Below, piece after piece: positions 170-35,044 of a stretch of 64,000 nt of DNA. The stretch is taken from positions 1 through 64,000 of the forward strand of contig PHDT01000001.1 in assembly GCA_002842695.1 (NCBI GenBank). The letters are read 5' to 3'. The DNA comes from Bacteroidetes bacterium HGW-Bacteroidetes-10. Lineage in GTDB: Bacteria; Bacteroidota; Bacteroidia; Bacteroidales; UBA932. The first letter of the stretch is position 1, and every line of letters begins with the position of its first letter. Position numbers and translations under genes: made by a program. The notes beneath the pieces are model-generated. The model searched no databases. It was not told the origin of the DNA and worked only from the letters and a program-made list of their open reading frames with translations.

Positions 170-967
170 TTATTCCTGAACGATGGTTACTTCGATACCA
201 ATGTCATTGAGTTTCTCGATGATTTGTTTTGGTGCCTGACTGTCAGTTATTACCTGGTCTACTTCTGATATTTCACAAATTTTACTGAATCCGCGTAAGC
301 CAAACTTGGATGAATCGGCAAGAACAATTACCTTTTGGGCAGCTTTCATCATCATTTTATTGAGGTTTGCTTCCATCAGATTTGTTGTGGATAGGCCAAA
401 GTTTGTATCAAAACCATCTACACCAATGAAAAGTTTGCTGCAGGATACCTCTTCTATCATCTTTTCGGCATATGGCCCTACAACAGAGACGGAACTGTTT
501 CTAAGGATACCACCCAGCTGAATTACATCGATATTCTTGTCTCGGGAAAGTACAGATGATACACTTACAGATGCTGTAACAACTGTGAGGTGTGTTGATG
601 TCTTTATTTCTTTGGCTAAAGATAAAACAGTTGTTCCCGATGCAATAATTATTGAGTCGTTATCAGTAATAAGTTCTGCAGCTTTAATACCAATTGCTCT
701 CTTCTTCTCAGTGTTGATTTTTTCCTTTTCATTAATATGCCTGTCATTAATATATGGGTTTATGAGAATGGCATATCCATGCGCCCTGTATAATAAATCA
801 AGGGATTCAAGATAGCTGAGATCTTTTCTTATCGTTACTTCAGATACATTTAACTGACTGGCAAGAGACGTTACAGATACAGAACTCTGTTTTCTAAGAA
901 TTTCCAGAATGAATTCATGTCTTTCATTTAGTACGGGTGAATTCGCAATTTGTGTTGTACGTGCCAT
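170..967 (-). CDS. glpR: DeoR-family transcriptional regulator, GlpR-like
   Basis: A 265-aa cytoplasmic repressor of the DeoR family. The N-terminal winged helix-turn-helix lies at residues 17-65, with the recognition-helix signature SEVTIRKDLSYLE at 42-54. The rest is the DeoR sensor domain, a ribose-5-phosphate-isomerase-like fold that binds a phosphorylated effector. It contains IIASGTTV and the late VLADSSKFG motif typical of the family. It is divergent from a glycerol-3-phosphate dehydrogenase and glpT, so glycerol-3-phosphate is the likely effector and the 255-bp intergenic region the likely operator. The family call is secure. The GlpR assignment rests on gene context, because DeoR proteins sense many sugar phosphates. 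Confidence 0.85.
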   Translation of the reverse strand: MARTTQIANSPVLNERHEFILEILRKQSSVSVTSLASQLNVSEVTIRKDLSYLESLDLLYRAHGYAILINPYINDRHINEKEKINTEKKRAIGIKAAELITDNDSIIIASGTTVLSLAKEIKTSTHLTVVTASVSVSSVLSRDKNIDVIQLGGILRNSSVSVVGPYAEKMIEEVSCSKLFIGVDGFDTNFGLSTTNLMEANLNKMMMKAAQKVIVLADSSKFGLRGFSKICEISEVDQVITDSQAPKQIIEKLNDIGIEVTIVQE

Positions 968-1061
968 ATATGTTAAACATTTATTTTATACTAAGGTAAT
1001 AAAAAGTTTTAATATGAAATCAGAATTTGCTTTAAAATGGATATGTAAAGCAAATGATCTT

Positions 1062-1098
1062 TTGTAATGAAATAAAAATTGAAATTAATCCATTACAA
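1062..1098. promoter_or_regulatory. Inverted repeat, candidate GlpR operator
   Basis: TTGTAATG (1062-1069) and CATTACAA (1091-1098) form a perfect 8-bp inverted repeat with a 21-bp spacer. It lies between the divergent regulator and glp genes, about 35 bp upstream of the -33 element of the glp promoter. The rest of 968-1222 is AT-rich and shows no ORF. The operator role is inference. Confidence 0.35.
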
Positions 1099-1132
1099 TT
1101 GTTAAAACGAAAGCTAAAAATGCAAATAATTA

Positions 1133-1162
1133 TTTGTTTATAAAAATAACTTATTAAATTTG
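1133..1162 (+). promoter_or_regulatory. Bacteroidetes-type promoter for the glp operon
   Basis: TTTG at 1133-1136 and TAAATTTG at 1155-1162 match the Bacteroidetes sigma-ABfr consensus (TTTG / TAnnTTTG) with an 18-bp spacer. The predicted transcript starts about 50 bases before the ATG at 1223. This is the best two-box promoter match in the window. Confidence 0.6.
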
Positions 1163-1222
1163 TTTCGATAATATCATTGACAACTTACGAAAAGAAATTA
1201 TTAAGTTCATATACCTATATAA

Positions 1223-2047
1223 ATGAAACGCGAAGAATTAATTGAGAAAATATCTGACAAATCCAAGATTTGGGATATGGTTGTGATTGGTGGCGGGGCC
1301 ACAGGACTTGGAATAGCTCTTGATGCTGCATTGAGAGGATATAGTGTTGCATTGTTTGAATTGGATGATTTTGCAAAATCAACATCCAGCAGGAGTACCA
1401 AGCTGGTTCACGGAGGAGTAAGATATCTTCAGAAGGGTGATGTTGCGTTGGTTCGTGAAGCACTCACAGAAAGAGGCCGCTTAAGAAATAATGCGCCACA
1501 TCTGGTTAAGGATCAGTCATTCGTTATTCCTAATTACACACATCTTGACAATTTTATTTATACATGCGGTCTTACATTGTACGATATTCTCTCATGGGGC
1601 GGGCTTAGTCTGGGAAGATCACTGTTTATTCCTAAAAGGAAGACATCAAGATGTCTTCCAACCATTACAAAAAAAGGTTTAAAAGGTGGAGTAATTTACC
1701 ATGACGGACAGTTTGATGATTCGCGTCTTGCAATTAATATAGCACAGTCATGTGCAGAAAACGGGGGATGTCCAATTAACCACATGAAGGTTTCCGGTAT
1801 ACTTCACGATGAAAAGGGAAGAGTTGCAGGTGTTAAAGTAATTGATAACGAAACCGGAAAAGAATATTCCGTAAGGTCAAAAAGTACAATAAACGCTACA
1901 GGATGTTTTGTTGACGATATTATCAAAATGGATGTACCATCATCAACAAGAATGGTTAAGCCAAGTCAGGGAGTTCATCTTGTATTTGACAAGTCTTTTT
2001 TAAACAGTGATTATGCGCCGCGTTCTGTTTGCTGTTCCGTGGCATAA
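1223..2047 (+). pseudogene. glpD: Glycerol-3-phosphate dehydrogenase (FAD), N-terminal part, frameshifted
   Basis: The first half of an FAD-dependent glycerol-3-phosphate dehydrogenase (GlpD/GlpA), which oxidises glycerol-3-phosphate to DHAP at the membrane and passes electrons to quinone. The FAD-binding glycine motif IGGGATG is at residues 22-28, followed by the family signature STSSRSTKLVHGGVRYLQ. The frame stays typical up to SDYA (codons at 2006-2017), then runs into 10 unrelated residues and a stop. The rest of the enzyme continues in the next frame (2007-2765). Family members usually have about nine residues (roughly IMIPKTxDG) between DYA and RVLFAVPW that are absent here. A deletion of about 26 bases near 2018 would explain both the gap and the frame change. 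The enzyme is probably inactive, unless this is an assembly error. Confidence 0.8.
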
Positions 2048-2765
2048 TAAAATTGTTGTAGGTACCACTGATATTGTCAGAGATGAGCCTGAGCTCGAAC
2101 CTGTTGCCCTGGAAGAAGAGATCGAATTTATTCTCCAGACTGCCGGTTTATATATGGTAAGAAAACCTGAGAGAAAAGATATCCTTTCTGTATTCGCAGG
2201 TCAAAGACCACTAGCAGCACCAAAGAAAGAGGGCAAAAGCACAAAAGAGATTTCAAGAAGCCATAAGATTTTTGTATCGGATAATAATCTGATAACCATT
2301 ACAGGTGGTAAGTGGACCACTTATCGCCGAATGGCAGAAGATACTGTAGATAAGGCTATCAATCTCAATCTTATAGAGCCAAGAAAATGTGTTTCAAAAA
2401 ATTTCCGCATACACGGATATAAACCGAATCCAGATCTGAATAATCATTTATATGTTTATGGTTCTGATATGAAACTTATCGAAGATATTATCAAAAATAG
2501 TCCAGAGATGGGAGGCAAAATTCATCCTTCATACAATTATACACTGGCAGAGGTTGTTCTTGCAGTAAGGAATGAAATGGCAAGAAACGTAGAGGATGTG
2601 CTTGCAAGAAGAGTAAGACTTCTGTTTATAGATGCGAAAGCCTCTAAAGCAGCAGCACCTGTTGTTGCAAAAACAATTGCACAGGAACTGGGTTATGATA
2701 ATAATTGGATTGATAATCAGATAAAAACTTTCGAGACATTATCGGATCAGTATATTATTAACTAA
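2007..2765 (+). pseudogene. glpD: Glycerol-3-phosphate dehydrogenase (FAD), C-terminal part
   Basis: The continuation of the same dehydrogenase in frame +1. It begins with RVLFAVPWHNKIVVGTTD (from 2019), carries the TITGGKWTTYRRMAED motif near the end of the FAD domain, and ends with the helical DAO_C domain (ARRVRLLFIDAKA). The open frame begins with GTG at 2007 and overlaps the first frame by 41 bases, but those first codons do not look like a real start. It could not bind FAD alone because the Rossmann half is encoded upstream. glpT follows after 68 bp. Confidence 0.8.
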
Positions 2766-2784
2766 TTAGTCGTTTTTTTTAACA

Positions 2785-2812
2785 CTTGCTTAACATTACA
2801 ATAGTACTTTTG
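2785..2812 (+). promoter_or_regulatory. Possible internal promoter upstream of glpT
   Basis: TACTTTTG at 2805-2812 fits TAnnTTTG. The partner CTTG at 2785-2788 is a weak match at 16-bp spacing. It would let glpT and downstream genes be expressed despite the lesion in the dehydrogenase gene. Confidence 0.35.
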
Positions 2813-2833
2813 TTTTGTAATAAAACTTAAATT

Positions 2834-4291
2834 ATGTTTAACTTTTTTGATCCACCTACACCTAAACCTCTTATTCCTGCGGAAAGGATTGATTCTGAAT
2901 ACAAGAAAATGAGACTCAAAGTATTTATCGGAGCATTTCTTGGTTATGCAGGCTATTATTTGGTAAGGAAAAATCTTGCACTGGCTTCTCCCGGAATGAT
3001 CCAATCTATAGAAAACGGGGGACTCGGGTACACAAAGGCTGAGTTGGGTATAGCGATGTCTGCTCTATCGATAGCCTATGCTTTCAGTAAGTTTATAATG
3101 GGAAGTATTTCTGACAGGTCAGATGCTCGTAAATTTCTGGTTGTCGGGCTGATACTTTCATCGATAATAATGATGTCAGTTGGGATATTTCCGTTTGCCA
3201 CAAGTTCAATTCCTGTGATTTTCATGTTTATGTTCCTGATTGGCTGGCTTTCTGGAATGGGATGGCCTCCGTGCGGACGTATCATGGTGCACTGGTTTTC
3301 TCAGAATGAACGAAGTATGAAAATGTCAATCTGGAATACATCTCATACAGTTGGAAGCGGAATGTTAGGAAATCTGGCAGCTGTTGGAACAATGCTTCTT
3401 GGAGGTTTATTTATTGTCGATATAGGAGGCGGAATAATGGTTGAACAAACCTGGCGTTCCGTTTTCGTTTTTCCGGCAATTGTAGCATTAGCTATTGCCG
3501 TATTTTGCTGGTGGGCTTTAAGAGATACTCCGCTTTCCTGCGGATTGCCACCAATTGATAAATACAGAAATGATCTTACAGCAAAAGTTGACGCAAACGG
3601 AGGAGAGAAAATCCCTTTTTCAAAATTATTCGTTGACTATATATTCAAGAACAGGGTTTTATGGATTATTGCTATTGCCAATGCATTTGTATACCTCGTC
3701 AGATATGGGATTGGTGACTGGTCTGCCACTTATCTGCAGGAGACAGGTATCCTAAACAGTGAACAAAGCAAGATGGCATTTGCTCTCCACAATTATGCCG
3801 GTGTTCCGGGAACCATTCTTGGGGGAATAATCTCTGCGAAGTTCTTTAAAGGTAGATGTGCTCCTGCAAATGTAATATATATGATACTCGTACTGGTATC
3901 AATACTATTTTACTGGCAGGCTACACCTGTTGCTGAGTTTATTTCACAATCATTCAGTTTTGATTTTGTTGCCACAAGGGTAGCTGTGGTTTATTCTTCC
4001 CTTATTGCTGTCGGGTTCTTTATTTATGGCCCTGTAGCTCTTATTGGAGTTCAGGCAGTAAATCTCGTTCCAAAAAATGCTGCAGGAACAGCTGCCGGAT
4101 TTGTTGGCCTGTTTGGTTATCTGATTGGTGATGCCTTACTTTCGAAGATTGTTGTAGGTGCTGTGGCAAGCAACGAATCTCTGGGATGGAACGCTACATT
4201 CTGGCTGATGATTGCAGCAAGTATTATTGCGGCTGTATTTTCTGCAGCTACATGGAAGAGAGAGAAAGAGGCCTGCATAGTGCAAGGCTGA
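2834..4291 (+). CDS. glpT: Glycerol-3-phosphate transporter, MFS (OPA family)
   Basis: A 485-aa inner-membrane antiporter that imports glycerol-3-phosphate in exchange for phosphate. Twelve hydrophobic segments are readable. OPA-family marks include YAGYYLVRKNLALASPGM near residues 38-55, the substrate-loop segment GWPPCGRIMVHWFSQNERS near 146-164, and WRSVFVFPAIVALAIAVF in the central part. The length is normal for GlpT/UhpT proteins. It follows the dehydrogenase and is 16 bp from the next gene, a secreted phosphodiesterase whose product it could import. A related organophosphate such as hexose phosphate is possible, but the neighbours favour glycerol-3-phosphate. Confidence 0.88.
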   Translation: MFNFFDPPTPKPLIPAERIDSEYKKMRLKVFIGAFLGYAGYYLVRKNLALASPGMIQSIENGGLGYTKAELGIAMSALSIAYAFSKFIMGSISDRSDARKFLVVGLILSSIIMMSVGIFPFATSSIPVIFMFMFLIGWLSGMGWPPCGRIMVHWFSQNERSMKMSIWNTSHTVGSGMLGNLAAVGTMLLGGLFIVDIGGGIMVEQTWRSVFVFPAIVALAIAVFCWWALRDTPLSCGLPPIDKYRNDLTAKVDANGGEKIPFSKLFVDYIFKNRVLWIIAIANAFVYLVRYGIGDWSATYLQETGILNSEQSKMAFALHNYAGVPGTILGGIISAKFFKGRCAPANVIYMILVLVSILFYWQATPVAEFISQSFSFDFVATRVAVVYSSLIAVGFFIYGPVALIGVQAVNLVPKNAAGTAAGFVGLFGYLIGDALLSKIVVGAVASNESLGWNATFWLMIAASIIAAVFSAATWKREKEACIVQG

Positions 4292-4307
4292 TAATTAACT
4301 TAAGTTG

Positions 4308-6284
4308 ATGGAAATGAATAAAATATATAAATTTGTCTGCCTGTCCTGTCTGATAGTATTTGGTGCATTAGCTTCTGTGAGCTGTGAAAAGCCTGATACA
4401 CCCAAGCCTCCTGTCGATACTTTTGTTTTGACAGGAGTATCTATTCCCGGAACAATCTCTGTTACCCCTAATTCCAATGTGGAGATTACAGGTAAAGGGT
4501 TTGCTGCCGGAGATAAAATTGTGTTTACATTATCCGGAAATACAGCTCAAAAATTTGAGTTTAATGTTGCCAGTGTGACGGCAAATTCGGTTTCAATAAA
4601 TATTGGTTCTCTAATAACATCCGGAACATACAACATTTCTGCAGTAAGAGGCGCCAAATCAATATCTCTTGGATCTGCTATACTGAGAATTACTGCAAAT
4701 ACTACAATTCCTGATATTTCCGGAAAGAATATTAAGGGTGTTGTCTATTGTAATGGCAGGGGAGTAGCCGGAGTTGCAGTTTCGGATGGTGTCGAAGTGA
4801 CAACTACTAATGCCGATGGTGTATACTATCTGCAATCTGACAAGAGACATGGATATGTTTTTATCTCAATTCCTGCAAATTATGAAGTTCCTCAGAAAAA
4901 TAAACTTCCTTTCTTCTTTGACTATGTAACCTCAAGTACTGCCGTTGTAGATCAGCGAAATTTTGAACTTATTGAAGCAAACAATGAAAATCATGTTCTG
5001 ATTGCCATGCCTGATATGCACCTTTCAAACAGAAATAACGATATCAGCCAGTTCAGAGCTGGATTTTACGCAGAAGCCAAGGCATACAGCAATCAGCTTA
5101 AATCTGCCGGCACAAAATTTTATGGAATTGCTCTGGGAGATATGACATGGGACGTTTACTGGTATGAAAATTCTTATTTTCTGAATAACTATGTAAATGA
5201 AATCGACGGAATCGGCTTCCAGATCTTTAATATTATGGGTAACCATGACAATGATCCCTACAAAGTTATGGACTTCCAGGCAGAGTCTACTTATAAGTCC
5301 CTGATTGGGCCTTCTTATTATTCATTTAATCTAGGAAAGGTACATTATGTTGTACTAGATGATACAGAGTATATTAATACAGGAGGAGCACCAGGTGTTA
5401 TCGGAGCCAGAAACTACAACGACGCTGTAACATCTGAGCAATTAGCCTGGTTGCAGAAAGATCTGGCTCTTATCTCAGACAAGTCAACACCTGTTGTTGT
5501 AGCACTTCATATTCCGCTTTATTCTGCATCAGTTAACTCTTCCGGTCAGCAGGTGAATGCTGCCAACCTTACTAACACTGCACAGGTACAAGCTGCTTTA
5601 AATGCATTCTCAAATGTTAAATTTATCTCCGGACACACTCACATTAACTACAATGTAGAGATATCGGATAAGCTTTACGAACACAATATCGCAGCCATAA
5701 GTGCAACATGGTGGTGGACCGGAAAAACAGGCTACGCCGGAAATCATATTTGCAAAGATGGTTCACCCGGAGGTTACGGAATTTTTGAAATTACAGGAAA
5801 AGATATAAAATACAGATATAAAGGAATCGGGTATAATAAGAATAAGCAATTCCGGACTTATGACAGAAATACAATTGAAATAACAGCTGCTAAATATACA
5901 CCTTCTGCGAATTCAACATATCAGGCTAAAGTACAGACATATGCCGGTGAATATGCATTCCCGGGAACAGATAATACAGTACTAATCAATGTTTTTAATT
6001 ATGACAGTTTCTGCTCTCTTGAAGTAAAGGAAAATGGTGTTGTTCTTCCTGTAACCCGTAAACCAAAGAAAGACCCGCTGCATATCATCTCATACGAGAT
6101 GCAGAGACTTAATGTTAATGCTGAACCTACTTCATCATTTAATACAAGTAATTCTACTCATATTTTTGAAGTAACAGCTTCTTCTGCGAACTCTACTCTG
6201 GAGATTAAGTTAACAGACCGGTATGGTAATGTATATACTGAAACCATGACCAGACCTAAAACATTTTCAACATCAATGGAATAA
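4308..6284 (+). CDS. Calcineurin-like metallophosphodiesterase lipoprotein
   Basis: A secreted metallophosphoesterase of about 658 aa. A lipoprotein signal ends at the Cys of SVSCEKPD. A TIG/IPT-like beta domain follows (about 40-125), then a small carboxypeptidase-regulatory-like domain (about 138-215), the catalytic domain, and a beta-rich C-terminal domain of the kind found in bacterial 'metallophos_C' proteins. All metal-site motifs are visible: PDMH, GDMTWD, MGNHDND, ALHIP and SGHTHIN. Family members hydrolyse phosphomono- or diesters; its place between glpT and SusC suggests it releases glycerol-phosphate from a larger ester. I start at ATG 4308 (ATG 4314 is also possible). It resembles the gene at 11263 in architecture but has the extra TIG domain. 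Confidence 0.8.
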   Translation: MEMNKIYKFVCLSCLIVFGALASVSCEKPDTPKPPVDTFVLTGVSIPGTISVTPNSNVEITGKGFAAGDKIVFTLSGNTAQKFEFNVASVTANSVSINIGSLITSGTYNISAVRGAKSISLGSAILRITANTTIPDISGKNIKGVVYCNGRGVAGVAVSDGVEVTTTNADGVYYLQSDKRHGYVFISIPANYEVPQKNKLPFFFDYVTSSTAVVDQRNFELIEANNENHVLIAMPDMHLSNRNNDISQFRAGFYAEAKAYSNQLKSAGTKFYGIALGDMTWDVYWYENSYFLNNYVNEIDGIGFQIFNIMGNHDNDPYKVMDFQAESTYKSLIGPSYYSFNLGKVHYVVLDDTEYINTGGAPGVIGARNYNDAVTSEQLAWLQKDLALISDKSTPVVVALHIPLYSASVNSSGQQVNAANLTNTAQVQAALNAFSNVKFISGHTHINYNVEISDKLYEHNIAAISATWWWTGKTGYAGNHICKDGSPGGYGIFEITGKDIKYRYKGIGYNKNKQFRTYDRNTIEITAAKYTPSANSTYQAKVQTYAGEYAFPGTDNTVLINVFNYDSFCSLEVKENGVVLPVTRKPKKDPLHIISYEMQRLNVNAEPTSSFNTSNSTHIFEVTASSANSTLEIKLTDRYGNVYTETMTRPKTFSTSME

Positions 6285-6323
6285 CTGCTATACTATATAT
6301 AAACTTAACTAAATATTTAATCT

Positions 6324-9300
6324 ATGAATCTTAAAAATTACTTTAAAAAGTTCTTGGTTATGGTAACAGTGCTCTTGTTTGCAACGCAAACATGGGCTCA
6401 GACCACAATCAAAGGAACCGTTTATGAGTCAGACGGCAAGACACCTGTCATAGGGTGCGCAGTCATGGCTAAAGGTACTGCAAGAGGAACGACTACAGAT
6501 CTTAACGGAGCATACTCAATACTTGCTTCGGAAGGACAGGTGCTCGAGTTCATCAGCATGGGATATGTAACAAAAAGCATAACTGTTGGAAAACAGTCTG
6601 TTCTGGATGTTACACTTGAATTTTCTGCAAGAGAGCTAGAAGGTCTTGTTGTAACTGCTCTTGGTATTACTCGTCAGGAAAAATCTCTTGGATACTCGGT
6701 TACTAAGGTTGAGAGTGAAAAGCTGACACAGGTTACCTCGAGCAACTGGCTTAACGGAATGTCCGGAAAAGTTGCCGGTCTTACCTTTAATGGTGCGAGT
6801 TCAGGACCTATTGGTTCGATGAGGGTTACACTTCGTGGTGATCAGTCTTTGAACTATGGTGCAAATGAGGCTTTGTTTATTGTAGATGGTGTCCCTATCA
6901 GATCAGGTGCTACAGCAACAACCTCAAGCAGTAGTTATACAAACTCAGGTGCAGATTTTCCTGTGGATTTCGGGAATGGAGCAAGTGATATTAACCCTGA
7001 TGATATAGCTTCAGTTTCAGTACTGAAGGGACCGGCAGCAACTGCACTTTATGGTTCCAGAGCTGCAAATGGTGCAATTGTTATAACAACTAAATCTGGT
7101 CGTAAAAATAAAGGTATTGGTGTTACTTTTAATTCATCTGTTACAGTTGAAAGAGCAAGTTACTGGCCTGATTTTCAAACTGAATACGGCTCTGGTTCGG
7201 ATATGGGGAAAGATGAATATAATTTTTGGACACTTAATTCAGACATAGTTGGATCAAATGATTTTCCAAAAAGAAACCTGTCAAGATATGCATGGGGTGA
7301 GAAATTCAATGCAAATAATCTTCGTTACCAGTATGAAGGTAAAAATTGGGAAACTGGCGAGATTATTAAGACTCCTTTTGTATATCAGGACGATTGGTTT
7401 ACTGGTATTTTCCAATCTGGAGTAACTTATAATAATTCACTTTCAGTAAGTGGCAGCAATGGCGAGGGAACAAACGTCCGCTTTTCAATGACAGACACCA
7501 GAAATAAATGGATTCTTCCCAATACCGGTTTTGGAAAACAATCATACTCTTTCTCATTTGAATCCCCTCTGAATAAGTGGATTAAATTCAACGCCAAAGT
7601 AAACTATTACCGTACAGACAGCGACAATATGCCAATGGCAGGTTATCACGAGACAACTGTAATGTATGACCTTATGTGGGGATATAACTCAAATTCAATG
7701 AGTAACTGGAGAGATGAGTATTTTGAAGGCAGATTCAATGCTATCAACAGAAACTCGTTAACATCAGAAAATGGAAACAGCCTGGTTGTTGCTGGTCAAA
7801 GCTCTTACAACCCATACAGAATTCTTTATGAAGAATTGAACTCAATTAATAAAGACAGAGTATTTGGTTCAGCTGGTTTCACCATTAACCTTGCAAAGGG
7901 GCTTACACTTGATTTAAAGTCAGGTATGGATATGGGTATGGAGTTTCGTACTCAGCGTAAACCTAAACTCACAAGAGGCTGGGAAAATGGTTTTTACAGA
8001 GAGGAATCTGTAACCAACTATGAGTTCAACACAGACTTCATGATCAAGTATCAGAAAGATTTTCTTAAAGACAGACTTGGATTAATGGCTGCATTTGGTG
8101 GCAATAATATGGTGAGAGAGTACTTCAGAAATACGGTTCAGTTAAATGAACTTGATATTGATGGAGTATATCATATATCTAATGTTCCTTCAGGAATATT
8201 TCCCACACCTAATAATTACAGAAGCAAAAAATCAATCAACAGTCTTTACGGTCTGGTTTCACTAGACTTGGATGATACTTTCTTTTTGGATATTACAGGC
8301 AGAAATGACTGGTCGAGTACTCTTGCTCCAGGCAACTGGTCATATTTTTATCCGTCAGTCGCTGGAAGTGTCCTTTTAGATGAACTTCTTGATTTTAAAA
8401 CTAATGCTCCTGCAATTTCATTTGCCAAAGTAAGATTATCCTGGGCAAATGTAGGTAATGATACAGACCCATATTTCCTTGACCAATACTATTCTGCATC
8501 GGCAATCAATGGAGGTTACACACTCCCAGGAACTATTCCTGATCCAATGATTAAACCTGAAAACGTTGAAAGCTGGGAACTGGGTCTGGACACCAAATTT
8601 TTTATGAACCGACTTGGTATTGACCTTGCTGTTTATAGATCATCGACTACAAATCAGATTATCCCTGCAGCAATTGACCCAATTGTAGGTGCTTCTGCAA
8701 TGAGGATTAATGCAGGTGAAATTGCTAATAAGGGTATTGAGATTTCTTTGAACTCTACTCCTGTTATTACTAAAAATTTTAAATGGGATCTGAACTTTAA
8801 TATTTCTAGGAATATAAGTACCCTCGTTAGTTACAGGGATGGATGGGATCCTGCAAGCCCAATTGAAACTGACATGGGTACCACTATTGGCGGAAGATAC
8901 CATGTCTATTCATATGTTGGTCAGGAGATGCATCAAATCTACGGATTTGCACTTAAGAGAGCGCCTGAAGGTTCGTTCTATACAGATGAAAGTGGAAAGA
9001 AAATAGATGTTTCTGGCCAGATGATTCTTGATAAGAATACCGGACTTCCAGAGCTGATTAAAACGGCAGATAACTATTTGGGTAAAGTGAATCCAGACTG
9101 GAGGGGAGGTTTTAATACATCTTTGAAGTACAAGAACTTTACTCTTAATATGGCTTTCTCATATCAGCTTGGAGGAAAGCGATTTTCAGTGACAAATGGT
9201 ATTCTGTCATATCAGGGTAAACTCAAAAATTCATTACCAGGTCGTTATGATGGAATGGTTGCAGAAGGTGTTAACATTGTTTCATATAATGAAGATGGTT

Positions 9301-9650
9301 CACCGGTATATGGCAAGAATAATACTATTACATCAAGTATTTACAATTACTATCAGTCAATAGCCCTTGATCGTTACAATGGTGAGGCACATACTTTTGA
9401 CACATCATTCCTAAAATTCAAAGAGGCGAGACTAGAATACAACCTGCCTGAAAGCATTTGCAGCAAAATAGGCTTTATACAGGGAGCTAATATTGCGATT
9501 TTCGCTACCAATATCTTCTCACTTGATAACTGGCCACAGTTTGATCCGGAAGGTGGTATGCTTCAGGGATCCAATGTCTTCAATGGTATTGAAGTTGGAG
9601 CATTCCCAATGACCCGCTCATTTGGGTTTAACTTGAAATTATCATTCTAA
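6324..9650 (+). CDS. SusC/RagA-family TonB-linked outer-membrane transporter
   Basis: A 1108-aa outer-membrane beta-barrel. The signal peptide ends at TQTWAQ, and a CarboxypepD_reg-like domain covers about 28-110. The TonB-box/plug region begins near LEGLVVTALGITRQ, with plug motifs IVDGVPI and SVLKGPAATALYGSRAANGAI. The barrel ends with the aromatic terminus FNLKLSF. It imports oligomeric nutrients with its SusD partner using TonB energy. It lies 39 bp after a phosphodiesterase and 17 bp before SusD. The substrate is unknown, but the phosphodiesterases and glpT in the same run suggest a glycerol-phosphate-containing compound. Confidence 0.92.
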   Translation: MNLKNYFKKFLVMVTVLLFATQTWAQTTIKGTVYESDGKTPVIGCAVMAKGTARGTTTDLNGAYSILASEGQVLEFISMGYVTKSITVGKQSVLDVTLEFSARELEGLVVTALGITRQEKSLGYSVTKVESEKLTQVTSSNWLNGMSGKVAGLTFNGASSGPIGSMRVTLRGDQSLNYGANEALFIVDGVPIRSGATATTSSSSYTNSGADFPVDFGNGASDINPDDIASVSVLKGPAATALYGSRAANGAIVITTKSGRKNKGIGVTFNSSVTVERASYWPDFQTEYGSGSDMGKDEYNFWTLNSDIVGSNDFPKRNLSRYAWGEKFNANNLRYQYEGKNWETGEIIKTPFVYQDDWFTGIFQSGVTYNNSLSVSGSNGEGTNVRFSMTDTRNKWILPNTGFGKQSYSFSFESPLNKWIKFNAKVNYYRTDSDNMPMAGYHETTVMYDLMWGYNSNSMSNWRDEYFEGRFNAINRNSLTSENGNSLVVAGQSSYNPYRILYEELNSINKDRVFGSAGFTINLAKGLTLDLKSGMDMGMEFRTQRKPKLTRGWENGFYREESVTNYEFNTDFMIKYQKDFLKDRLGLMAAFGGNNMVREYFRNTVQLNELDIDGVYHISNVPSGIFPTPNNYRSKKSINSLYGLVSLDLDDTFFLDITGRNDWSSTLAPGNWSYFYPSVAGSVLLDELLDFKTNAPAISFAKVRLSWANVGNDTDPYFLDQYYSASAINGGYTLPGTIPDPMIKPENVESWELGLDTKFFMNRLGIDLAVYRSSTTNQIIPAAIDPIVGASAMRINAGEIANKGIEISLNSTPVITKNFKWDLNFNISRNISTLVSYRDGWDPASPIETDMGTTIGGRYHVYSYVGQEMHQIYGFALKRAPEGSFYTDESGKKIDVSGQMILDKNTGLPELIKTADNYLGKVNPDWRGGFNTSLKYKNFTLNMAFSYQLGGKRFSVTNGILSYQGKLKNSLPGRYDGMVAEGVNIVSYNEDGSPVYGKNNTITSSIYNYYQSIALDRYNGEAHTFDTSFLKFKEARLEYNLPESICSKIGFIQGANIAIFATNIFSLDNWPQFDPEGGMLQGSNVFNGIEVGAFPMTRSFGFNLKLSF

Positions 9651-9667
9651 TAAAACACTTACAAGAG

Positions 9668-11242
9668 ATGAAAAAATTGAAATTAATCATAATAAGTGTG
9701 TTTGTTCTTGGTCTCCTTAATTCATGCACAAAGGATTTCCAGGAGATTAACACAAATCCCAACAGAACGGTTGTTGGAATGATACAGCCTTCGGGTATGT
9801 TTGAACCTATACTGTACAATTCTGCTAATCAATGGCTCTATCGTACATGGTACTATAATAATGAGCTTATTCAGTTTACAGCTCACACAGGTGGTGTTAC
9901 CAGAAGAGAGCATCTTTATTTCCTGGAAGAGTCAAGAGACTGGGCCGGATTCTGGAACCATTATGCAAATTATGGCAAGAACATTGATCATATGCATGAG
10001 CTTTCGATTGAAAAAGGCGATAAATCCCTCGAGGCAATTGCTCTTACATTTAAGGCTCTGTTCTTCTCAAACATGACTGACATGTTTGGAAGTGTTCCTT
10101 ATGAGGATGCCTTCTCAGGAAGAAAAGTTGGAGGGACTTTAACTCCACGTTTCAATTCTCAAAAGGAGGTCTATCAATTTTTATTTCAGGTTCTGGAAGA
10201 GGCAAATGATATCTACGCAACCAATCCTGTTTTCCTAAATCCAAAAATGGATGGAATGTATGCTGGGAATATGGCTTCGTGGAGAAAATTCAACAACTCT
10301 CTTTATCTAAGACTCCTTTGCAGAGTAAGCGGAAGAACTGAAATGAATGTAGGAGCAAAGATGACCGAGATTCTTAATAACACTTCAAAATATCCGATTT
10401 TCACATCAAATCAGGATAATGCTACCGTTAAGTTCTCTGGTGTTGACCCATATCTTAGCGAATTTGGAGTAATGACAGAGGGTGAATTTAGTGCAAGTGG
10501 GCGTAAACTCACTCAACAGCTAATCAAAATGACTGTTCAGACAGATTTAAATGGAATTCAGGTATATGTTGATCCAAGACTCAATGTTATTGGCAAGAAA
10601 AACAACGTGGCTGCTGTAAATCCTCAAAACATCTGGATTGGCACAAAATCAGGCTGTACAGATCAGGAGAGAGCAACTGTAGACAGAGGAACTTCATGGC
10701 TTAACTATAAGGTTTTCTGCAGAAAGGATGCTCCCGCTACATATATGGACTATGCAGAAGTTAACTTTATTTTTGCCGAAGCGGCTCTTAAGGGCTGGAT
10801 CGCCGGAGGTGCAACAGCTGCCAAAACTTATTATGAAGCCGGTGTTAGAGCGTCAATGGAAAAATGGTCTGAGCAGGGCCAGTACTCAGAGCCAAAAGTT
10901 ACAATTTCAAACACTGATGTTAACACTTATCTTGCATCACCGCTGGGGTCGTGGGACCTTGCAGTAAATAAAGAGGAGTTTCTGGGGAACCAAAAATTTC
11001 TTGCTCTCTTCTGGGTAGGTATGGAAGCATATCATGAGTACAGAAGGACAGGATATCCGGTTCTTACAATAGGAGAGGGTACTATTTACAATGACCAGAT
11101 CCTTCCGACCAGAATGGGTTATCCTAATACGACAATCTCTACCAATATGGAGAATGCAAATGCAGCTCTCCAGCAAATGGGCGGGGAAAATAACATGAAG
11201 ACACCTGTGTGGTGGAGCAAACAAGCAATACAAGGAAACTGA
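9668..11242 (+). CDS. SusD/RagB-family nutrient-binding lipoprotein
   Basis: A 524-aa surface lipoprotein with lipobox LLNSC followed by TKDFQEINTNPN, the usual start of the SusD-like_2 branch. The tetratricopeptide-like helical scaffold is visible (ALTFKALFFSNMTDMFGSVPY, YMDYAEVNFIFAEAAL). It forms the lid of the preceding SusC transporter. Its immediate position after SusC, with similar size and codon use, supports a pair. No ligand can be inferred from the sequence alone. Confidence 0.9.
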   Translation: MKKLKLIIISVFVLGLLNSCTKDFQEINTNPNRTVVGMIQPSGMFEPILYNSANQWLYRTWYYNNELIQFTAHTGGVTRREHLYFLEESRDWAGFWNHYANYGKNIDHMHELSIEKGDKSLEAIALTFKALFFSNMTDMFGSVPYEDAFSGRKVGGTLTPRFNSQKEVYQFLFQVLEEANDIYATNPVFLNPKMDGMYAGNMASWRKFNNSLYLRLLCRVSGRTEMNVGAKMTEILNNTSKYPIFTSNQDNATVKFSGVDPYLSEFGVMTEGEFSASGRKLTQQLIKMTVQTDLNGIQVYVDPRLNVIGKKNNVAAVNPQNIWIGTKSGCTDQERATVDRGTSWLNYKVFCRKDAPATYMDYAEVNFIFAEAALKGWIAGGATAAKTYYEAGVRASMEKWSEQGQYSEPKVTISNTDVNTYLASPLGSWDLAVNKEEFLGNQKFLALFWVGMEAYHEYRRTGYPVLTIGEGTIYNDQILPTRMGYPNTTISTNMENANAALQQMGGENNMKTPVWWSKQAIQGN

Positions 11243-11262
11243 TTTAAATCAGAACCTTAACT

Positions 11263-12705
11263 ATGGTAAAGAAAAGATCAATAATAATATTTCTGTTTAT
11301 CCTGTTATCCTCTGCCGCCTTCGGCAGAGAGATAAAAGGAAGTGTATGTTCCGGTGAAAAAGGAATTGCAGGGATAGTTGTATCCGATGGGTTTAACTTT
11401 GCATTGACAGATAATTCAGGAGACTTCACTCTTGATATCTCACAAAAAGCAAAGTTTGTATTCATTATCACACCATCCGGCTTTACGGCTACCCGTGCTG
11501 ATGGAGTCTCTCAGTTCTTCAGAAGAATTTCAGATACTTCGGATAATTATCATTTTTCACTTAACACACTTACCGGCAAGAACGGATATGCAGTAATTGC
11601 TGTTGGTGATCCACAGACTAAAAATGATGCTCACTATTCAATATTCCAAAATGTTGCGCTTCCTGAAATAAAGAAATGTGCAGATTTTTATAAATCCATA
11701 AATATTTCTGCGATTTCAATTTATCTTGGAGATATTACATGGGATACAATGAGTCTTTTCGAAAGCCATAAAAAAGGTATGAAAAGCCTGGAGATTCCCG
11801 TATATACTACCATAGGAAATCATGACTATCAGAAAGAACTGGCGGGAGACAGTGAAGCTGCCGCTGCATACGAAGATAGTTTTGGTCCTTCTTATTACGG
11901 ATTTAATCTGGGTAACAATTACTTTATTGTTCTGGACAATATCATCTATGATACAAATAAAAAGTATACAGAAGATGTTGATGAAAAGCAGCTAAACTGG
12001 TTAAGAAAATATGCTGAGTTAATACCTGCAGGATCAAGAGTATATGTTGCAATGCACGCACCAATTAACAGATTCTGGATTAAGGATTATAAATTCACAA
12101 AAGGTCACAGCCAGCTGCTGGATATACTTTCCGGATTTAAACTCAGTTTTCTTACCGGACACACTCATATTAATACCAATATTGAATTTCTGCCTGCAGT
12201 TATGGAGCACAATGTTGCCTCCTCATGTGGTGCATGGTGGAACTCAACTTTGGCACCAGATGGAACTCCTTCCGGCTTTCAGGTTTTTGAACTGAAAGAT
12301 AAAGGGAATGAGTGGTACTACTGGTCGTTTGGTAAAGACCGGGATTATCAAATGGATATCTACTCTAAAGGTTCATTTAAATCATGCCCTGATGCACTTG
12401 TTGCAAAAATTTGGAACTGGGATAATAAATGGAAGGTAGAGTGGTTTTCTGATGATAAGTATATGGGTGAGATGAAACAATTCAGCTCAACTGATCCGGC
12501 TTATGAGAATGACATGGAACAACTTATGAGTAAAGGAAAAATTAAGAGGGCCGAATACGAAAGAGGTAATTTTTTAAAACCCCGGGAGTCATTCTTCTAT
12601 TTTTCAGCTGTCCCATCACCTTCTGCAAAACGGATACGAATTGTAGCAACTGACAGATTTGGCAGACAATACAGTAAAATAATCAAACTTGACAAAGATA
12701 TTTAA
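11263..12705 (+). CDS. Calcineurin-like metallophosphoesterase, secreted
   Basis: A 480-aa protein with a signal peptide (cleavage near AAFGR), a CarboxypepD_reg-like N-terminal domain (about 22-95), the catalytic domain and a C-terminal beta domain as in the gene at 4308, but no TIG domain. Metal motifs: GDPQ, GDITWD, GNHDYQ, AMHAP and TGHTHIN. The first motif has Gln where many relatives have His; GDPQ is also known in other calcineurin-like enzymes, so activity is likely. There is no lipobox, so it is probably periplasmic. This suggests successive cleavage: the lipoprotein acts outside and this enzyme after import. The exact substrate is not visible. Confidence 0.8.
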   Translation: MVKKRSIIIFLFILLSSAAFGREIKGSVCSGEKGIAGIVVSDGFNFALTDNSGDFTLDISQKAKFVFIITPSGFTATRADGVSQFFRRISDTSDNYHFSLNTLTGKNGYAVIAVGDPQTKNDAHYSIFQNVALPEIKKCADFYKSINISAISIYLGDITWDTMSLFESHKKGMKSLEIPVYTTIGNHDYQKELAGDSEAAAAYEDSFGPSYYGFNLGNNYFIVLDNIIYDTNKKYTEDVDEKQLNWLRKYAELIPAGSRVYVAMHAPINRFWIKDYKFTKGHSQLLDILSGFKLSFLTGHTHINTNIEFLPAVMEHNVASSCGAWWNSTLAPDGTPSGFQVFELKDKGNEWYYWSFGKDRDYQMDIYSKGSFKSCPDALVAKIWNWDNKWKVEWFSDDKYMGEMKQFSSTDPAYENDMEQLMSKGKIKRAEYERGNFLKPRESFFYFSAVPSPSAKRIRIVATDRFGRQYSKIIKLDKDI

Positions 12706-12730
12706 TAGCAAAATAATAAACTGATATCAT

Positions 12731-13972
12731 ATGAAAACGAACAAAATTTTTGTACTGATTCTCCTGGTATTTGCCGTGTTTACCTCATGCAAAAAGGAAC
12801 CGGTTGATACAGGCGATCCGTATTTCAACTTTAATGATGCTACAGAGCAAACTAGCCCTACCGGCTATAATGTAGATTACAAAGGCAATACTGCCGGAGA
12901 AAAATATATTATCAGATCAAACAGAAACTGGACAATTGTCGAGAATGGAACCAGTGACTGGGTTAGATTTTTCCCAAACGAAGGGGATGATGATGGAATC
13001 GTAAATGTAATCGTTTCTGAAAACAAAACTTTCGAAGACCGTACAACACAGTTCAAATTTATGGTTGCAGGTCAGGAGCAGCCTGTTATGTTCACAGTTA
13101 CACAGGCAAAGGCTACCCCATATCTCACAATAAAAGATGTGGAGAAGGTAAGGAATCTCAATCAGATTGAGCAGATACTTACAGTGCCTGTTCAGGCAAA
13201 TGTTCAGTACACCTATACGTCAAATGCATCATGGATGCAGTTTAGCAATGCTGTTGTTGGATCACTTGGAACAGATCTCAATTTCACCGTTTCCGAAAAT
13301 ACTGCATCTGCTTCTAGAACAGGTACAATTTCATTTACCTGTGCACAGTTTCCTGCTTTAAATGTAACTCTTACTGTTAAGCAAGAGGGTAAGAGCGAAG
13401 GAACAATTGTATTCTTTGAAGATTTCAGCTGGTTAGAATACGGAAGTCCGATCTTCTATACAACAACAGGTGAAACAAGGATGGACCTCTGGACAGAAGT
13501 TGAAAAAGGTAAGGGATGGACAAGTACGCCAAATCCTGGTTCTTCAATGCAACCACTGGTATATGCACGAAAAGGATTTATAAAACTAGGCAAAACAGGA
13601 TTTGGCGGAGATATTATAACTCCTAAGCTTACCGGAATAGTTGGCACAAAAAATGTTCTCGTTAAGTTTAAAGCTGTTCCTTATATGACAGCAGCCGGAA
13701 CAAAAGATGATACTGACTTGAAGATTAGTCTTAAAGGTCCAGGAACATTAAGTACTGCACAATTTAATATTACTAACTGGCCTAATTATACAGAAGATCC
13801 AACTTGTACAGCAATCTGGGAAGCACAGGGAACAGAACGCAACTTTACAATTACCGGAGCAACTTCTGAAACTCAGATAGTATTTCTGGGTGGAGCGTTA
13901 AACCTTACTGGTATTGGAGCCGGCAAGAACAGAATCTTCCTTGATGATATTAAAGTTTTAATTCCGAATTAA
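12731..13972 (+). CDS. BACON-domain lipoprotein, putative surface binding protein
   Basis: A 413-aa lipoprotein (lipobox FTSC, then KKEPVDTGDP). Two BACON-like beta domains cover about 35-115 and 120-205, recognisable from the repeated NWTIVENGTSDWVRFFP and ASWMQF patterns with FTVTQA and LTVKQEG ends. A C-terminal jelly-roll-like domain (about 215-413) ends in NRIFLDDIKVLIPN. BACON proteins at this position in Bacteroidetes uptake loci act as surface binding or spacer proteins. It is the last gene of the glp-Sus run before a strong terminator. No catalytic motif is seen. Confidence 0.75.
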   Translation: MKTNKIFVLILLVFAVFTSCKKEPVDTGDPYFNFNDATEQTSPTGYNVDYKGNTAGEKYIIRSNRNWTIVENGTSDWVRFFPNEGDDDGIVNVIVSENKTFEDRTTQFKFMVAGQEQPVMFTVTQAKATPYLTIKDVEKVRNLNQIEQILTVPVQANVQYTYTSNASWMQFSNAVVGSLGTDLNFTVSENTASASRTGTISFTCAQFPALNVTLTVKQEGKSEGTIVFFEDFSWLEYGSPIFYTTTGETRMDLWTEVEKGKGWTSTPNPGSSMQPLVYARKGFIKLGKTGFGGDIITPKLTGIVGTKNVLVKFKAVPYMTAAGTKDDTDLKISLKGPGTLSTAQFNITNWPNYTEDPTCTAIWEAQGTERNFTITGATSETQIVFLGGALNLTGIGAGKNRIFLDDIKVLIPN

Positions 13973-13993
13973 AACATTAATATGTTATATATA

Positions 13994-14030
13994 AAGGAGT
14001 TGTCATAATTATTATGGCAGCTCCTTTTTT
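13994..14030 (+). terminator. Rho-independent terminator of the glp-Sus operon
   Basis: A 15-bp stem (13994-14008 with 14012-14026, two G-U pairs in RNA), a 3-base loop and a run of six T. It follows the BACON lipoprotein stop by 22 bases. Confidence 0.85.
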
Positions 14031-14052: not shown

Positions 14053-15306
14053 TTATTGTTTTGGGGTAAAGTACTTGACAAGCTGTGGAGATTTTCCTGC
14101 AATCAGAAGGTCTCTCATATACTCCATATATGGCCATGAATTATTAAAAAAGAACTTGAAACCTTCGCAGAGAGAGTTTCGATTACCATCATTTAATTTC
14201 GACGTTTCAAATCTGTGTTTCGGGCATTCTCCCCTGCAAACAGACAGATATTTACACGATTTGCATTCTGAAGGCAAAGAGTTTTTCTTATTAAGTCCAA
14301 AATCAAATCTTTTCTGAGATCTGTAAATATCCAAAAGAGAAGATTCCAGTATGTTACCAAGTTTGAAATCAGGATATACAAAATGATCGCAGGGGTATAC
14401 ATCACCATTATGTTCAACAACTAATGCTTCTCCGCATGTATCGTTCATTGAGCATAAACCGGGAGCAACATTGCTATGCTGTGCCAGTGTCGAGTCAAAC
14501 AGCTGAACAAAGTAGTCACCGATATCATTTTTAACCCAATATTTGAAAATGTCAAACATGAACTCTCCGTAAGCAAGTGAAGATACGCTCCATGGTGCAT
14601 AAACTGCTCCTGCAGTTCCGGGATTAACTATAAGTGGCCTCTTGCCATCTCTTTCAATGATATGCTCTGAAGCAGGCAGAAACTGCATATAGTGGCTGCC
14701 TGTACTTTTCAAGAACTGATAAACTTCAAGACCTCTGCCTTCAGATACCTTATTTACAACACTTAAAGTATTAAATTGAGTATTGTGTTTCTTTAGAATA
14801 TTGAGGCCATTCATTACATTTTTAAACGTTGGTTTCCCGGCTTTGTTCACTCTGGATGAGTTGTGAATATCTTCAGGCCCGTCAACAGAAATGCCAATAA
14901 GAAAATTATTTTCAGAGAAGAAATCTGCCCACTCATCTGTCAATAAAATACCATTAGTTTGTAATGAATTATTAATCTCTTTGCCCAGTGCATATTTATT
15001 CTGAAGTGCCAGAGCCTTTTTATAAAAATCAATTCCAAGAAGAAGGGGCTCTCCGCCATGCCAGAGAAATGATACCTCAGGTACATCATTTGCCGTAATA
15101 TATTGCTTTATATACTCTTCAAGCAAAGATTCAGACATTACAGGCTGATTATGGGCATACTGTTCAGATTTATCAAGATAGTAGCAATAGTTGCAATCCA
15201 GATTGCACATTGATCCAGCAGGTTTAACCATCGTTGAAAAGGCAACAGGTCCGGACTGTTTAAGAGCATATTCAAATGAAATAGACTGGGGTTTCCTCAT
15301 AATCAT
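14053..15306 (-). CDS. Radical SAM/SPASM protein, anaerobic sulfatase-maturating enzyme family
   Basis: A 417-aa radical SAM enzyme. The 4Fe-4S/SAM motif CNLDCNYCYYLDK is near residue 33, and the WHGGEPLLLG motif follows. The C-terminal SPASM region holds the auxiliary-cluster cysteines (CSMNDTC, CDHF, CKSCKYLSVCRGECPKHRF). This matches anSME proteins, which convert Cys or Ser in sulfatases to formylglycine. No sulfatase is present in the window, so the partner is elsewhere or this is another peptide-modifying SPASM enzyme. The start may be ATG 15306 or 15300. It is divergent from the asparaginase gene. Confidence 0.8.
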   Translation of the reverse strand: MIMRKPQSISFEYALKQSGPVAFSTMVKPAGSMCNLDCNYCYYLDKSEQYAHNQPVMSESLLEEYIKQYITANDVPEVSFLWHGGEPLLLGIDFYKKALALQNKYALGKEINNSLQTNGILLTDEWADFFSENNFLIGISVDGPEDIHNSSRVNKAGKPTFKNVMNGLNILKKHNTQFNTLSVVNKVSEGRGLEVYQFLKSTGSHYMQFLPASEHIIERDGKRPLIVNPGTAGAVYAPWSVSSLAYGEFMFDIFKYWVKNDIGDYFVQLFDSTLAQHSNVAPGLCSMNDTCGEALVVEHNGDVYPCDHFVYPDFKLGNILESSLLDIYRSQKRFDFGLNKKNSLPSECKSCKYLSVCRGECPKHRFETSKLNDGNRNSLCEGFKFFFNNSWPYMEYMRDLLIAGKSPQLVKYFTPKQ

Positions 15307-22709: not shown

Positions 22710-24053
22710 ATGAAACAACAAAAGATGTCTTTCTGGGATATCTGGAATATGACCTTCGGGTTTTTAGGTATTCAGTTTGGTTTTGCATTACAGAATGCAA
22801 ATGCCAGCAGGATTCTTCAAACCTTTGGAGCAGATGTTGAGCATTTGTCTTGGTTCTGGATAGCTGCGCCGCTTACGGGTATGATTGTTCAACCACTTGT
22901 AGGCCATTTCAGTGATAAAACCTGGACAAAACTAGGCAGAAGAAAGCCATATTTTCTTGTTGGTGCAATATTAGCTTCCATTGCTTTGATTTTTATGCCC
23001 AATTCTGCCATGCTTGCTCATCTTATGCCTGCAATGATGGTTGGAGCAGGAATGCTTATGATTATGGATGCTTCATTTAATATTGCAATGGAGCCATTTC
23101 GTGCTTTAGTTGCAGATTTACTGCCTTCAGACCAGCGAACTCTTGGATTTTCAATTCAGACATTTTTAATTGGTACCGGTGCTGTAATTGGATCCTGGTT
23201 ACCATATATACTTGCAGAATGGATGGGTGTCGAAAAAATATCTGCAGAGGGAAATGTGCCGGATAATGTAATTATCTCATTTTATGTTGGGGCGGCTGTA
23301 CTGATCTCTTCGATTATATGGACTATTACAAAAACAAAAGAATATCCACCGGAAAATTCTATAAATGAAGAGAATAAGAAGAAAACAAACGGGTTAATTG
23401 AGATATTCCATGATTTTGCAGCAATGCCCAAGACAATGAAGCAGCTTGGAATTGTTCAGTTCTTTTCCTGGTTTGCTCTCTTTTCCATGTGGGTTTTTAC
23501 AACTCCGGCAGTTGCTGTACATATTTATGGTACAGATATAAACGATACTTCTTCTGAACTCTATCAGGATGCAGGTAACTGGGTGGGGATTATATTTGGA
23601 GTATACAATCTCGTTGCAGCTGTATATGCCCTGCTTCTACCAGCAATAGCAAAAAAGATTGGAAGAAAGTTAACTCACTCGGTCTCTCTTCTTCTTGGCG
23701 GAATAAGCCTTATGTCAATTTACCTGATTCAAGATCCAAAAATGCTACTTGTCCCAATGATTGGGATTGGTATAGCATGGGGTAGTATACTGGCTATGCC
23801 GTATGCAATTCTGGCAGGATCACTTCCTGCGAAGAAAATGGGTATATATATGGGAATATTCAACTTTTTTATAACAATACCTCAAATACTTAACGGAATT
23901 GTAGGCGGGCCAATTGTTAAACGATTTTACGAATCGCAGGCAATATATGCCATCATCTTCGCCGGGATATGCTTGTTGATTGCAGCTGTATCAGTTGTAT
24001 TTGTTGATGACAAGGATGACATTATCCAACTTAAAATATTTAACAGAGAATAA
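22710..24053 (+). CDS. MFS sugar transporter, SLC45/maltose type
   Basis: A 447-aa inner-membrane major-facilitator protein of the sucrose/maltose (SLC45-like) group. Twelve hydrophobic segments are readable. Marks include FGFLGIQFGFALQNANASRI in the first segment, the loop VGHFSDKTWTKLGRRKPYF (about 69-87) and EPFRALVADLLPSDQRTLGFS. Similar proteins import maltose and maltodextrins in Bacteroidetes starch loci. A possible -7 element TACTTTTA lies at 22685-22692. The SusC gene follows after 30 bp. Confidence 0.87.
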   Translation: MKQQKMSFWDIWNMTFGFLGIQFGFALQNANASRILQTFGADVEHLSWFWIAAPLTGMIVQPLVGHFSDKTWTKLGRRKPYFLVGAILASIALIFMPNSAMLAHLMPAMMVGAGMLMIMDASFNIAMEPFRALVADLLPSDQRTLGFSIQTFLIGTGAVIGSWLPYILAEWMGVEKISAEGNVPDNVIISFYVGAAVLISSIIWTITKTKEYPPENSINEENKKKTNGLIEIFHDFAAMPKTMKQLGIVQFFSWFALFSMWVFTTPAVAVHIYGTDINDTSSELYQDAGNWVGIIFGVYNLVAAVYALLLPAIAKKIGRKLTHSVSLLLGGISLMSIYLIQDPKMLLVPMIGIGIAWGSILAMPYAILAGSLPAKKMGIYMGIFNFFITIPQILNGIVGGPIVKRFYESQAIYAIIFAGICLLIAAVSVVFVDDKDDIIQLKIFNRE

Positions 24054-24083
24054 ACCAATTATTAATTACTTAAACTAAAATTT

Positions 24084-27080: not shown

Positions 27081-27093
27081 AACACGATTTAAG

Positions 27094-28710: not shown

Positions 28711-28721
28711 TATTTAAGAAT

Positions 28722-29816: not shown

Positions 29817-29826
29817 TATTTACTTT

Positions 29827-29863
29827 AGAGGGAGTTACCTTTTACAGGATAACTCCCTCTTTT
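29827..29863 (+). terminator. Hairpin terminator between susE and the GH13 genes
   Basis: An 11-bp perfect stem (AGAGGGAGTTA / TAACTCCCTCT, 29827-29837 with 29850-29860), a 12-base loop and a short T-rich tail. The next GH13 start codon is only 12 bp downstream and no promoter lies between, so read-through probably feeds the enzyme genes. It may set SusCDE expression above that of the amylases. Confidence 0.7.
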
Positions 29864-29874
29864 ATATTTTTAAG

Positions 29875-33659: not shown

Positions 33660-33675
33660 ACTAAATACACTGAAT

Positions 33676-35034: not shown

Positions 35035-35044
35035 ACAGAGCTAA

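Follow-up and report, generated by a model that had tools for sequence, protein, structure and literature searches.

Sus importers are mostly assigned to glycans, and the locus described here raises the question of what such an importer carries when metallophosphoesterase genes (MPE1 and MPE2) flank it and genes for glycerol-3-phosphate uptake (glpT) and oxidation (glpD) precede it. The locus occupies positions 170-13972 of a 64,000-nucleotide stretch (the window) of contig PHDT01000001.1 from Bacteroidetes bacterium HGW-Bacteroidetes-10. By open reading frame (ORF) and domain reading, it consists of a divergent DeoR regulator and the single-strand array glpD (frameshifted)-glpT-MPE1-SusC-SusD-MPE2-BACON, and every gene that an earlier note on this DNA had described was found in its place with the expected domains. 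We consider it likely that the genes form a catabolic operon for a glycerol-phosphodiester that requires an outer-membrane importer, and lipid headgroups or bacterial wall polymers, not glycans, are probably the food source. The features on which this reading draws are as follows.

170..967, minus strand: DeoR-family repressor, GlpR-like by position, with PF00455 and PF08220, divergent
1107..1114, plus strand: operator-like word ACGAAAGC, a match to AYGAAAGY in the DeoR-glpD intergenic region
1134..1162, plus strand: candidate promoter of the Bacteroidetes type upstream of glpD, TTG (1134) and TAAATTTG (1155-1162)
1223..2765, plus strand: glpD, glycerol-3-phosphate dehydrogenase, in overlapping frames 1223-2047 (PF01266) and 2007-2765 (PF16901)
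2834..4291, plus strand: glpT, glycerol-3-phosphate:phosphate antiporter, TIGR00712 at 503.1 bits (below the curated cut-off of 632.55), 1pw4 at E=1.2e-116
4305..6284, plus strand: MPE1, lipoprotein metallophosphoesterase, motif I D-x-H, with PF16371 and PF16370, PF00149 below threshold
6324..9650, plus strand: SusC-type TonB-dependent importer, TIGR04056 at 574.6 bits (above cut-off)
9668..11242, plus strand: SusD-type lipoprotein lid, with PF12771 and PF12741, solved SusD homologues from E=9.4e-36
11263..12705, plus strand: MPE2, exported metallophosphoesterase, motif I D-P-Q, with PF16371, PF00149 and PF16370, type I signal inferred by eye
12731..13972, plus strand: BACON-domain lipoprotein (PF13004), probable surface binding protein
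13993..14027, plus strand: intrinsic terminator with a 16-pair stem and T tail, the strongest in the scan, directly after the array

The two ends of the array could both be recognised. GlpT aligned over nearly its full length with the solved E. coli protein (1pw4), which identifies it as a GlpT-type antiporter as in glp circuits, and the counterparts of its contact residues R45, K80, H165 and R269 were conserved. PF16901, the GlpD-type C-terminal domain, had its sole match in the host genome (G000; 2.41 Mb, 93.5% complete) in the glpD of the operon. The FGGY family, which also covers other sugar kinases, had no match in the same genome; therefore no glycerol kinase of this family was found to feed GlpD. 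At the other end, SusC and SusD genes stand side by side, as in Sus-type loci, and the Pfam scan of the array found no glycoside hydrolase or other carbohydrate-active domain such as a glycan polysaccharide-utilisation locus would carry, in agreement with the absence of a glycosidase reported earlier. By contrast, positions 22710-36862 of the window hold a textbook starch Sus locus (MFS, SusC, SusD, SusE and alpha-amylases) with three alpha-amylase genes. A 5'-nucleotidase-type metallophosphoesterase (37707-39428) stands right after the starch locus.

Conservation of the array was sought in a family sample of 99 genomes, where the order glpT-phosphatase-SusCD, for which the earlier note had proposed a search, was recovered. 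All eight genes stand in the same order in G010 (same genus), whose proteins are 51-85% identical to those of the window array, and in G056 (another genus). Identity of SusC to that of the window was 79% in G064, 74% in G010, 57% in G078 and 48% in G056, whose BACON protein had only 27% identity, so the order of the array has survived much sequence change. In G012, MPE1 lies on the far side of DeoR and is followed by glpD-glpT-SusC-SusD up to the contig end. G078 has no recognised DeoR neighbour and carries a 179-aa ORF with no Pfam match between glpT and MPE1. G002 and G090 have pieces of the array where their contigs end. G002 also carries GDPD-glpT-ECF-FecR-SusC-SusD-MPE2-422 aa-MPE1; its SusC is read in two frames there, and the contig end truncates MPE1.

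Linkage of glpT to phosphoesterases was far above expectation in this family. Among 26 glpT loci (in 25 of the 99 genomes), an MPE (MetallophosC gene) lay within 5 kb of glpT at 11, against 0.18 expected, a GDPD gene at nine, against 0.22 expected, and one or the other at 19; this clustering suggests that MPE and GDPD occupy the same place beside glpT. Distances were taken between match starts and genome sizes were rounded; for G032 the MPE counted is a fragmentary 138-aa frame, three MPE rows (weak matches or second pieces) from glpT-less genomes were omitted, and GDPD rows are full only for genomes with glpT. A same-strand SusC lay within 2.7 kb of glpT at 7/26 loci, the window's own included, where 0.58 would be expected for 2.5 kb. 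A wider range of 8 kb, with both strands counted, would give 3.7 of the 26 by chance. Matches on the opposite strand (G014 and G028) were excluded from the same-strand count, as was a 785-aa TonB-type protein of G034 that matched weakly (E 3.7e-8).

Gene fusions also suggest a tie of MPE2 to glycerophosphodiesters. Its orthologue is fused to a C-terminal GDPD domain in five loci, as seen by Pfam scan (G056 and G041), by a PF03009 match in the same frame (G039 and G012) or by BLAST (L005, a locus of a metagenome-assembled genome (MAG) from horse faeces). The GDPD part of all five contains the HRG...PENT stretch, which we take as the mark of an active GDPD. In a tree of 63 MPE rows (>330 aa, at least 90 bits, one duplicate G002 gene dropped), 16 of the MPE1 type and 47 of the MPE2 type, one MPE2 clade of 11 (97/95) contained all seven glpT-linked MPE2 and all five GDPD fusions in the tree; its eleventh member was a Sus-linked gene of G002. 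The tree does not include two MPE2-type genes adjacent to glpT in G104 (28-30% identity), which were retrieved afterwards; therefore linkage to glpT extends beyond the 11-row clade. Named relatives of MPE2 come from a Bacteroidales MAG and Chitinophagaceae, and a scan of viral contigs with MPE1 gave no match.

The two enzymes differ at motif I, where the MPE2 type has D-P-Q or a variant, with the Q conserved in most aligned rows, and MPE1 has D-x-H; the MPE2 rows of G002 also have D-x-H. By eye, a lipobox-like Cys or lipoprotein-like signal was present in all ten MPE1 homologues with printed N-termini, and plain signal sequences in the seven printed MPE2 homologues. The calcineurin-like fold and metal-binding motifs of GpdQ-type enzymes were recognised, with D-P-Q in MPE2 instead of D-x-H. 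PDB sequence searches turned up no relative close enough to be of use, the best E being 0.47 for MPE2 and 0.054 for MPE1. When the MPE2 model was compared with PDB folds, GpdQ came first (E 4.2e-05, TM 0.64 by target). Such models would fix the fold class of the enzymes, not their substrate.

The regulator would fit the same circuit. DeoR subfamily models all scored under their cut-offs, the best in NCBIfam being AgaR (232.7 bits, cut-off 260), and homologues with 65-85% identity occupy the same divergent position beside glpD in G010, G056, G064 and G012. Others stand at glpD-glpT-GDPD loci of G055 (65% identity) and G024 (53%), whose fetched stretches held no SusC match. This position and these relatives are consistent with a GlpR role. 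In G055, an ECF-FecR pair lies 4-6 kb past DeoR. The word AYGAAAGY occurred in 6/7 DeoR-glpD intergenic regions against 0.28 expected, a flattering contrast because the word was picked post hoc, and it forms a perfect inverted repeat in G055. When a conserved palindromic operator was sought in these regions, only the half-site-like word was common to them.

The layout resembles a single transcription unit. Gaps from glpD-glpT to MPE2-BACON are 68, 13, 39, 17, 20 and 25 bp, in line with the 16-68 bp earlier given for most of them, and the scan found no plus-strand terminator-like site inside them. Of the claim that the array runs from one good promoter to one terminator, the terminator was borne out, and a promoter box was found at 1155-1162; the sigma-70 scan added nothing, with 59 sites not above the shuffles (49.8, sd 7.8). 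TTG...TAnnTTTG matches the promoter consensus of Bacteroidetes. TAnnTTTG stands at the same aligned place in four of six other DeoR-glpD intergenic regions (G010, G012, G056 and G055); the regions excised from G064 and G024 did not show it. Because the best sigma-70 match (11/12) lies at 12689-12717, an inner promoter may exist ahead of the BACON gene. Beyond the terminator, a radical SAM/SPASM protein (14053-15306), presumably of the sort that matures sulfatases, is convergent with the operon.

Considering these results, we propose a plausible model for the operon, in which activities, locations, induction and substrate are predicted from sequence. SusD and SusC would bind the ester and import it, assisted by the BACON lipoprotein. 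Outside, the ester would be trimmed by MPE1, a lipoprotein probably located at the surface, and MPE2 in the periplasm, joined to GDPD in relatives, would complete the cut to sn-glycerol-3-phosphate. GlpT would then swap glycerol-3-phosphate for phosphate across the inner membrane, GlpD would oxidise it to dihydroxyacetone phosphate, and the DeoR regulator would probably keep the operon repressed as long as glycerol-3-phosphate is absent. The core of the interpretation in the earlier note, a Sus system feeding glycerol-3-phosphate to GlpT and GlpD, is thus well supported by the conserved order, the MPE2-GDPD fusions, MPE or GDPD at 19 of the 26 glpT loci, the DeoR relatives at glpD-glpT-GDPD loci and GpdQ as top fold match of MPE2.

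Assemblies of glpT with Sus genes also occur beyond the family. In samples of the order, which spans >100 families, glpT at E<=1e-80 was found in 18/295 genomes (19 loci), and the 17 loci other than those of G000 and G010 were fetched. A GDPD match stood beside glpT in nine of the 17 (one a 90-aa piece) and a same-strand Sus pair in three. These are DeoR, glpD-glpT-SusC-SusD-593 aa-phosphodiester glycosidase (NAGPA)-EEP phosphatase (861 aa) in G305 (L182:2348-7478 with L179), glpT-GDPD-449 aa-ECF-FecR-SusC-SusD in G385, and alpha-amylase, SusC-SusD-glpT-MPE2-GH31-MPE2 in G104. In the ORF calls the glpT of G305 is masked by a longer antisense frame, and its position comes from the glpT search and its identity from the domain scan. 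The Sus genes, regulators and enzymes are not the same from one assembly to the next, which makes it probable that glpT and Sus were joined on more than one occasion.

Several observations weigh against the proposed reading. Within the window, the Pfam scan found no PF03009 (GDPD) in the array, MPE2 included, and glpD is split by a frameshift within 2007-2047, its two halves being recognised in separate frames; the frameshift may be a real loss or an assembly error, and glpD is a single open frame of 521-542 aa in G010, G056 and G064. FGGY kinases, one or more, were present in four of six relatives tested. The structure models are moderate (pLDDT 70.7 and 62.6), GpdQ ties with E. coli 5'-nucleotidase as match of MPE2 (E 4.2e-05 each), and the best fold match of MPE1 is Rv0805 (E 2.0e-9), which we take to be a cyclic-nucleotide phosphodiesterase, with GpdQ not among the 50 fold matches listed.

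In the family, neither MPE nor GDPD stood near glpT at 7/26 loci, two of which (G090 and G085) are on short contigs (6.1 and 5.5 kb), and MPE2 is missing from the arrays of G064 and G078. For eight of the 16 MPE1 rows glpT was in the fetched stretch; the other eight lacked it, some at contig ends. Homologous loci without glpT, which the earlier note had named as a sign against its interpretation, do exist: G039 has MPE1-SusC-SusD-MPE2/GDPD-BACON without glpT (20 kb upstream read), G043 has MPE1-SusC without glpT and a 246-aa ORF upstream, in neither genome was a glpT found at E<=1e-60, and glpT is likewise missing next to the Sus-linked MPE1 of G041 (two loci), G122, G205 and L005. This sign applies to a part of the loci, and the interpretation as a whole is supported in part. 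At order level, an MPE stood beside glpT in one of the 17 fetched loci (G104), and of 20 stretches around MPE2-type genes a SusC match was found in 14 and a glpT match in none. Two MPE2-type genes (L157:9001-11187 and L154:8969-11644), the two order-level MPE2 fusions scanned, are fused to GH16 and a GHL10-like glycosidase with SusC and SusD matches nearby, which hints at phosphorylated glycans.

MPE2-type genes were found in 31/393 order genomes at E<=1e-60; as a general mark of glycerophosphodiester use they were rejected, their order-level relatives standing in other contexts. In the host genome itself, the gene at L057:8542-11772 (G000:C35) joins an MPE2-type phosphoesterase to an FAD-dependent oxidoreductase (PF12831). 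A GDSL/CE2 esterase gene and one for a DUF5018 protein lie close by on that strand, and a 1078-aa gene of G064 is similar to this fusion.

Some of these observations would fit other explanations. The locus might scavenge phosphorus in the manner of the Flavobacterium PUS loci, taking mixed phosphodiesters, nucleic-acid fragments included, for their phosphate, while glpT and glpD merely use one product. PUSI combines PusCD with two predicted periplasmic phosphodiesterases whose suggested targets are lipid headgroups and nucleic acids (PMC8115612), and the Rv0805-like fold of MPE1 and the glpT-less MPE1-SusC genes of G039 and G043 agree with such a role. We regard it as unlikely, since the adjoining regulator is a DeoR-type protein whose relatives also stand at glpD-glpT-GDPD loci, Pfam recognised no phosphate regulator in the array, the antiporter GlpT exports phosphate, and the GDPD fusions point towards glycerol esters. 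Less probable still is that the Sus genes serve a phosphorylated glycan, such as a capsule or a phosphoglycerol-decorated glucan, from whose sugars the enzymes would strip phosphoglycerol. The alpha-amylase and GH31 genes of G104, the order GH31-glpT-MPE2/GDPD in G041 and the phosphodiester glycosidase of G305 speak for it; the window locus has no glycosidase domain, and in G010, G056 and G064 all array genes match window genes, which leaves no room for one, the extra gene of G078 being its 179-aa ORF. The maps of these relatives were compared with window proteins only and cover the array. A 905-aa ORF near glpT-MPE2 in G004, considered as GH31 after the example of G041, proved to be a topoisomerase and was rejected.

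It is very improbable that the Sus-MPE and glpD-glpT blocks are adjacent without being related. G039 and G043 do have the former without the latter, glpT is accompanied by MPE2 but by no adjoining Sus genes in G004, G041 and G096, and SusC-signature matches are common (4-54 per genome); against this stand the short gaps on a single strand, the order held at 48% SusC identity and the separate assemblies of glpT with Sus genes outside the family.

A catabolic operon for a glycerol-phosphodiester thus remains our preferred explanation, and its importer bears on the choice of ester. Small headgroups should pass porins, so the importer would argue for a larger or scarce ester; the proposal of the earlier note that the ester is too large for porins is one of the weaker parts of its interpretation. 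Polyglycerol-phosphate would be a fair candidate by analogy, because GlpQ of Bacillus subtilis acts as a teichoicase, freeing sn-glycerol-3-phosphate from this polymer in wall teichoic acid, according to the excerpted text of PMC7086022. We suggest tentatively, as a possibility on the doubtful side, that the locus represents a Bacteroidales-type class, not recognised before, that grazes on polyglycerol-phosphate. SusCD would take up fragments of Gram-positive wall teichoic acid or similar capsules, phosphodiesterases at the surface and in the periplasm would cut these down to sn-glycerol-3-phosphate, and GlpT and GlpD would consume it. If this is true, versions with GH31 or a phosphodiester glycosidase would handle sugar-decorated forms, and the presence of GH31 or NAGPA in some assemblies fits this.

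A conserved operon joining a Sus importer to glycerol-3-phosphate catabolism would widen the cargo range of Sus systems and yields a prediction testable with purified enzymes. Furthermore, glpT or GDPD beside SusCD could be used as a marker when microbial communities are searched for loci in which teichoic acids or phospholipid headgroups are recycled.

The closest circuit in gene content at the catabolic end is the E. coli glp regulon (glpTQ, glpD and glpR), which unites a glycerophosphodiesterase, GlpT, GlpD and a DeoR-type repressor. It has no Sus importer, and its GlpQ belongs to the GDPD family, which in the window locus and its relatives is replaced by or joined to metallophosphoesterases. 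With starch Sus and polysaccharide utilisation loci the window array shares the SusC-SusD pair and surface lipoproteins, and differs in having no glycosidase. GpdQ of Enterobacter aerogenes (2zo9, 2dxl), the first fold match of MPE2, is a calcineurin-like glycerophosphodiesterase; the two share 13% identity and have 271 (GpdQ) and 480 (MPE2) residues. GlpQ of B. subtilis is a GDPD-family enzyme. As its excerpted report describes it, it serves self-turnover in a Gram-positive cell, not Gram-negative import, and does not degrade intact lipoteichoic acid (PMC7086022). In a sus cluster of Flavobacterium IR1 a GDPD gene is drawn among genes with susC, susD and susE; the excerpted text, which names no glpT, regards the cluster as one for polysaccharides, with GH65, GH97 and GH13 (PMC9131120).

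The earlier note had taken a phosphodiester-directed Sus locus to be new or little studied, and this claim is cut back because the Flavobacterium PUS loci, SusCD-like (PusCD) pairs with phosphodiesterases under phosphate depletion, were described in 2020 (PMC8115612). What stands of it is the glpT-SusCD locus, of which no description was found in the open-licence PMC literature (most subscription papers and all bioRxiv preprints lie outside this scope). Like the window locus, in which MPE1 and MPE2 flank SusC-SusD, PUSI and PUSII of Flavobacterium johnsoniae place a SusCD-like pair beside phosphodiesterases, not glycosidases; PUSI includes a pf00149 enzyme, and in PUSII a small domain, pf13653 (Pfam name GDPD_2), is part of PhoA1. 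These systems are induced by phosphate depletion, and the excerpted text names no glpT, glpD or DeoR regulator (PMC8115612). The glpT-glpD end, the DeoR regulator and the GDPD-fused relatives set the window locus apart from them.

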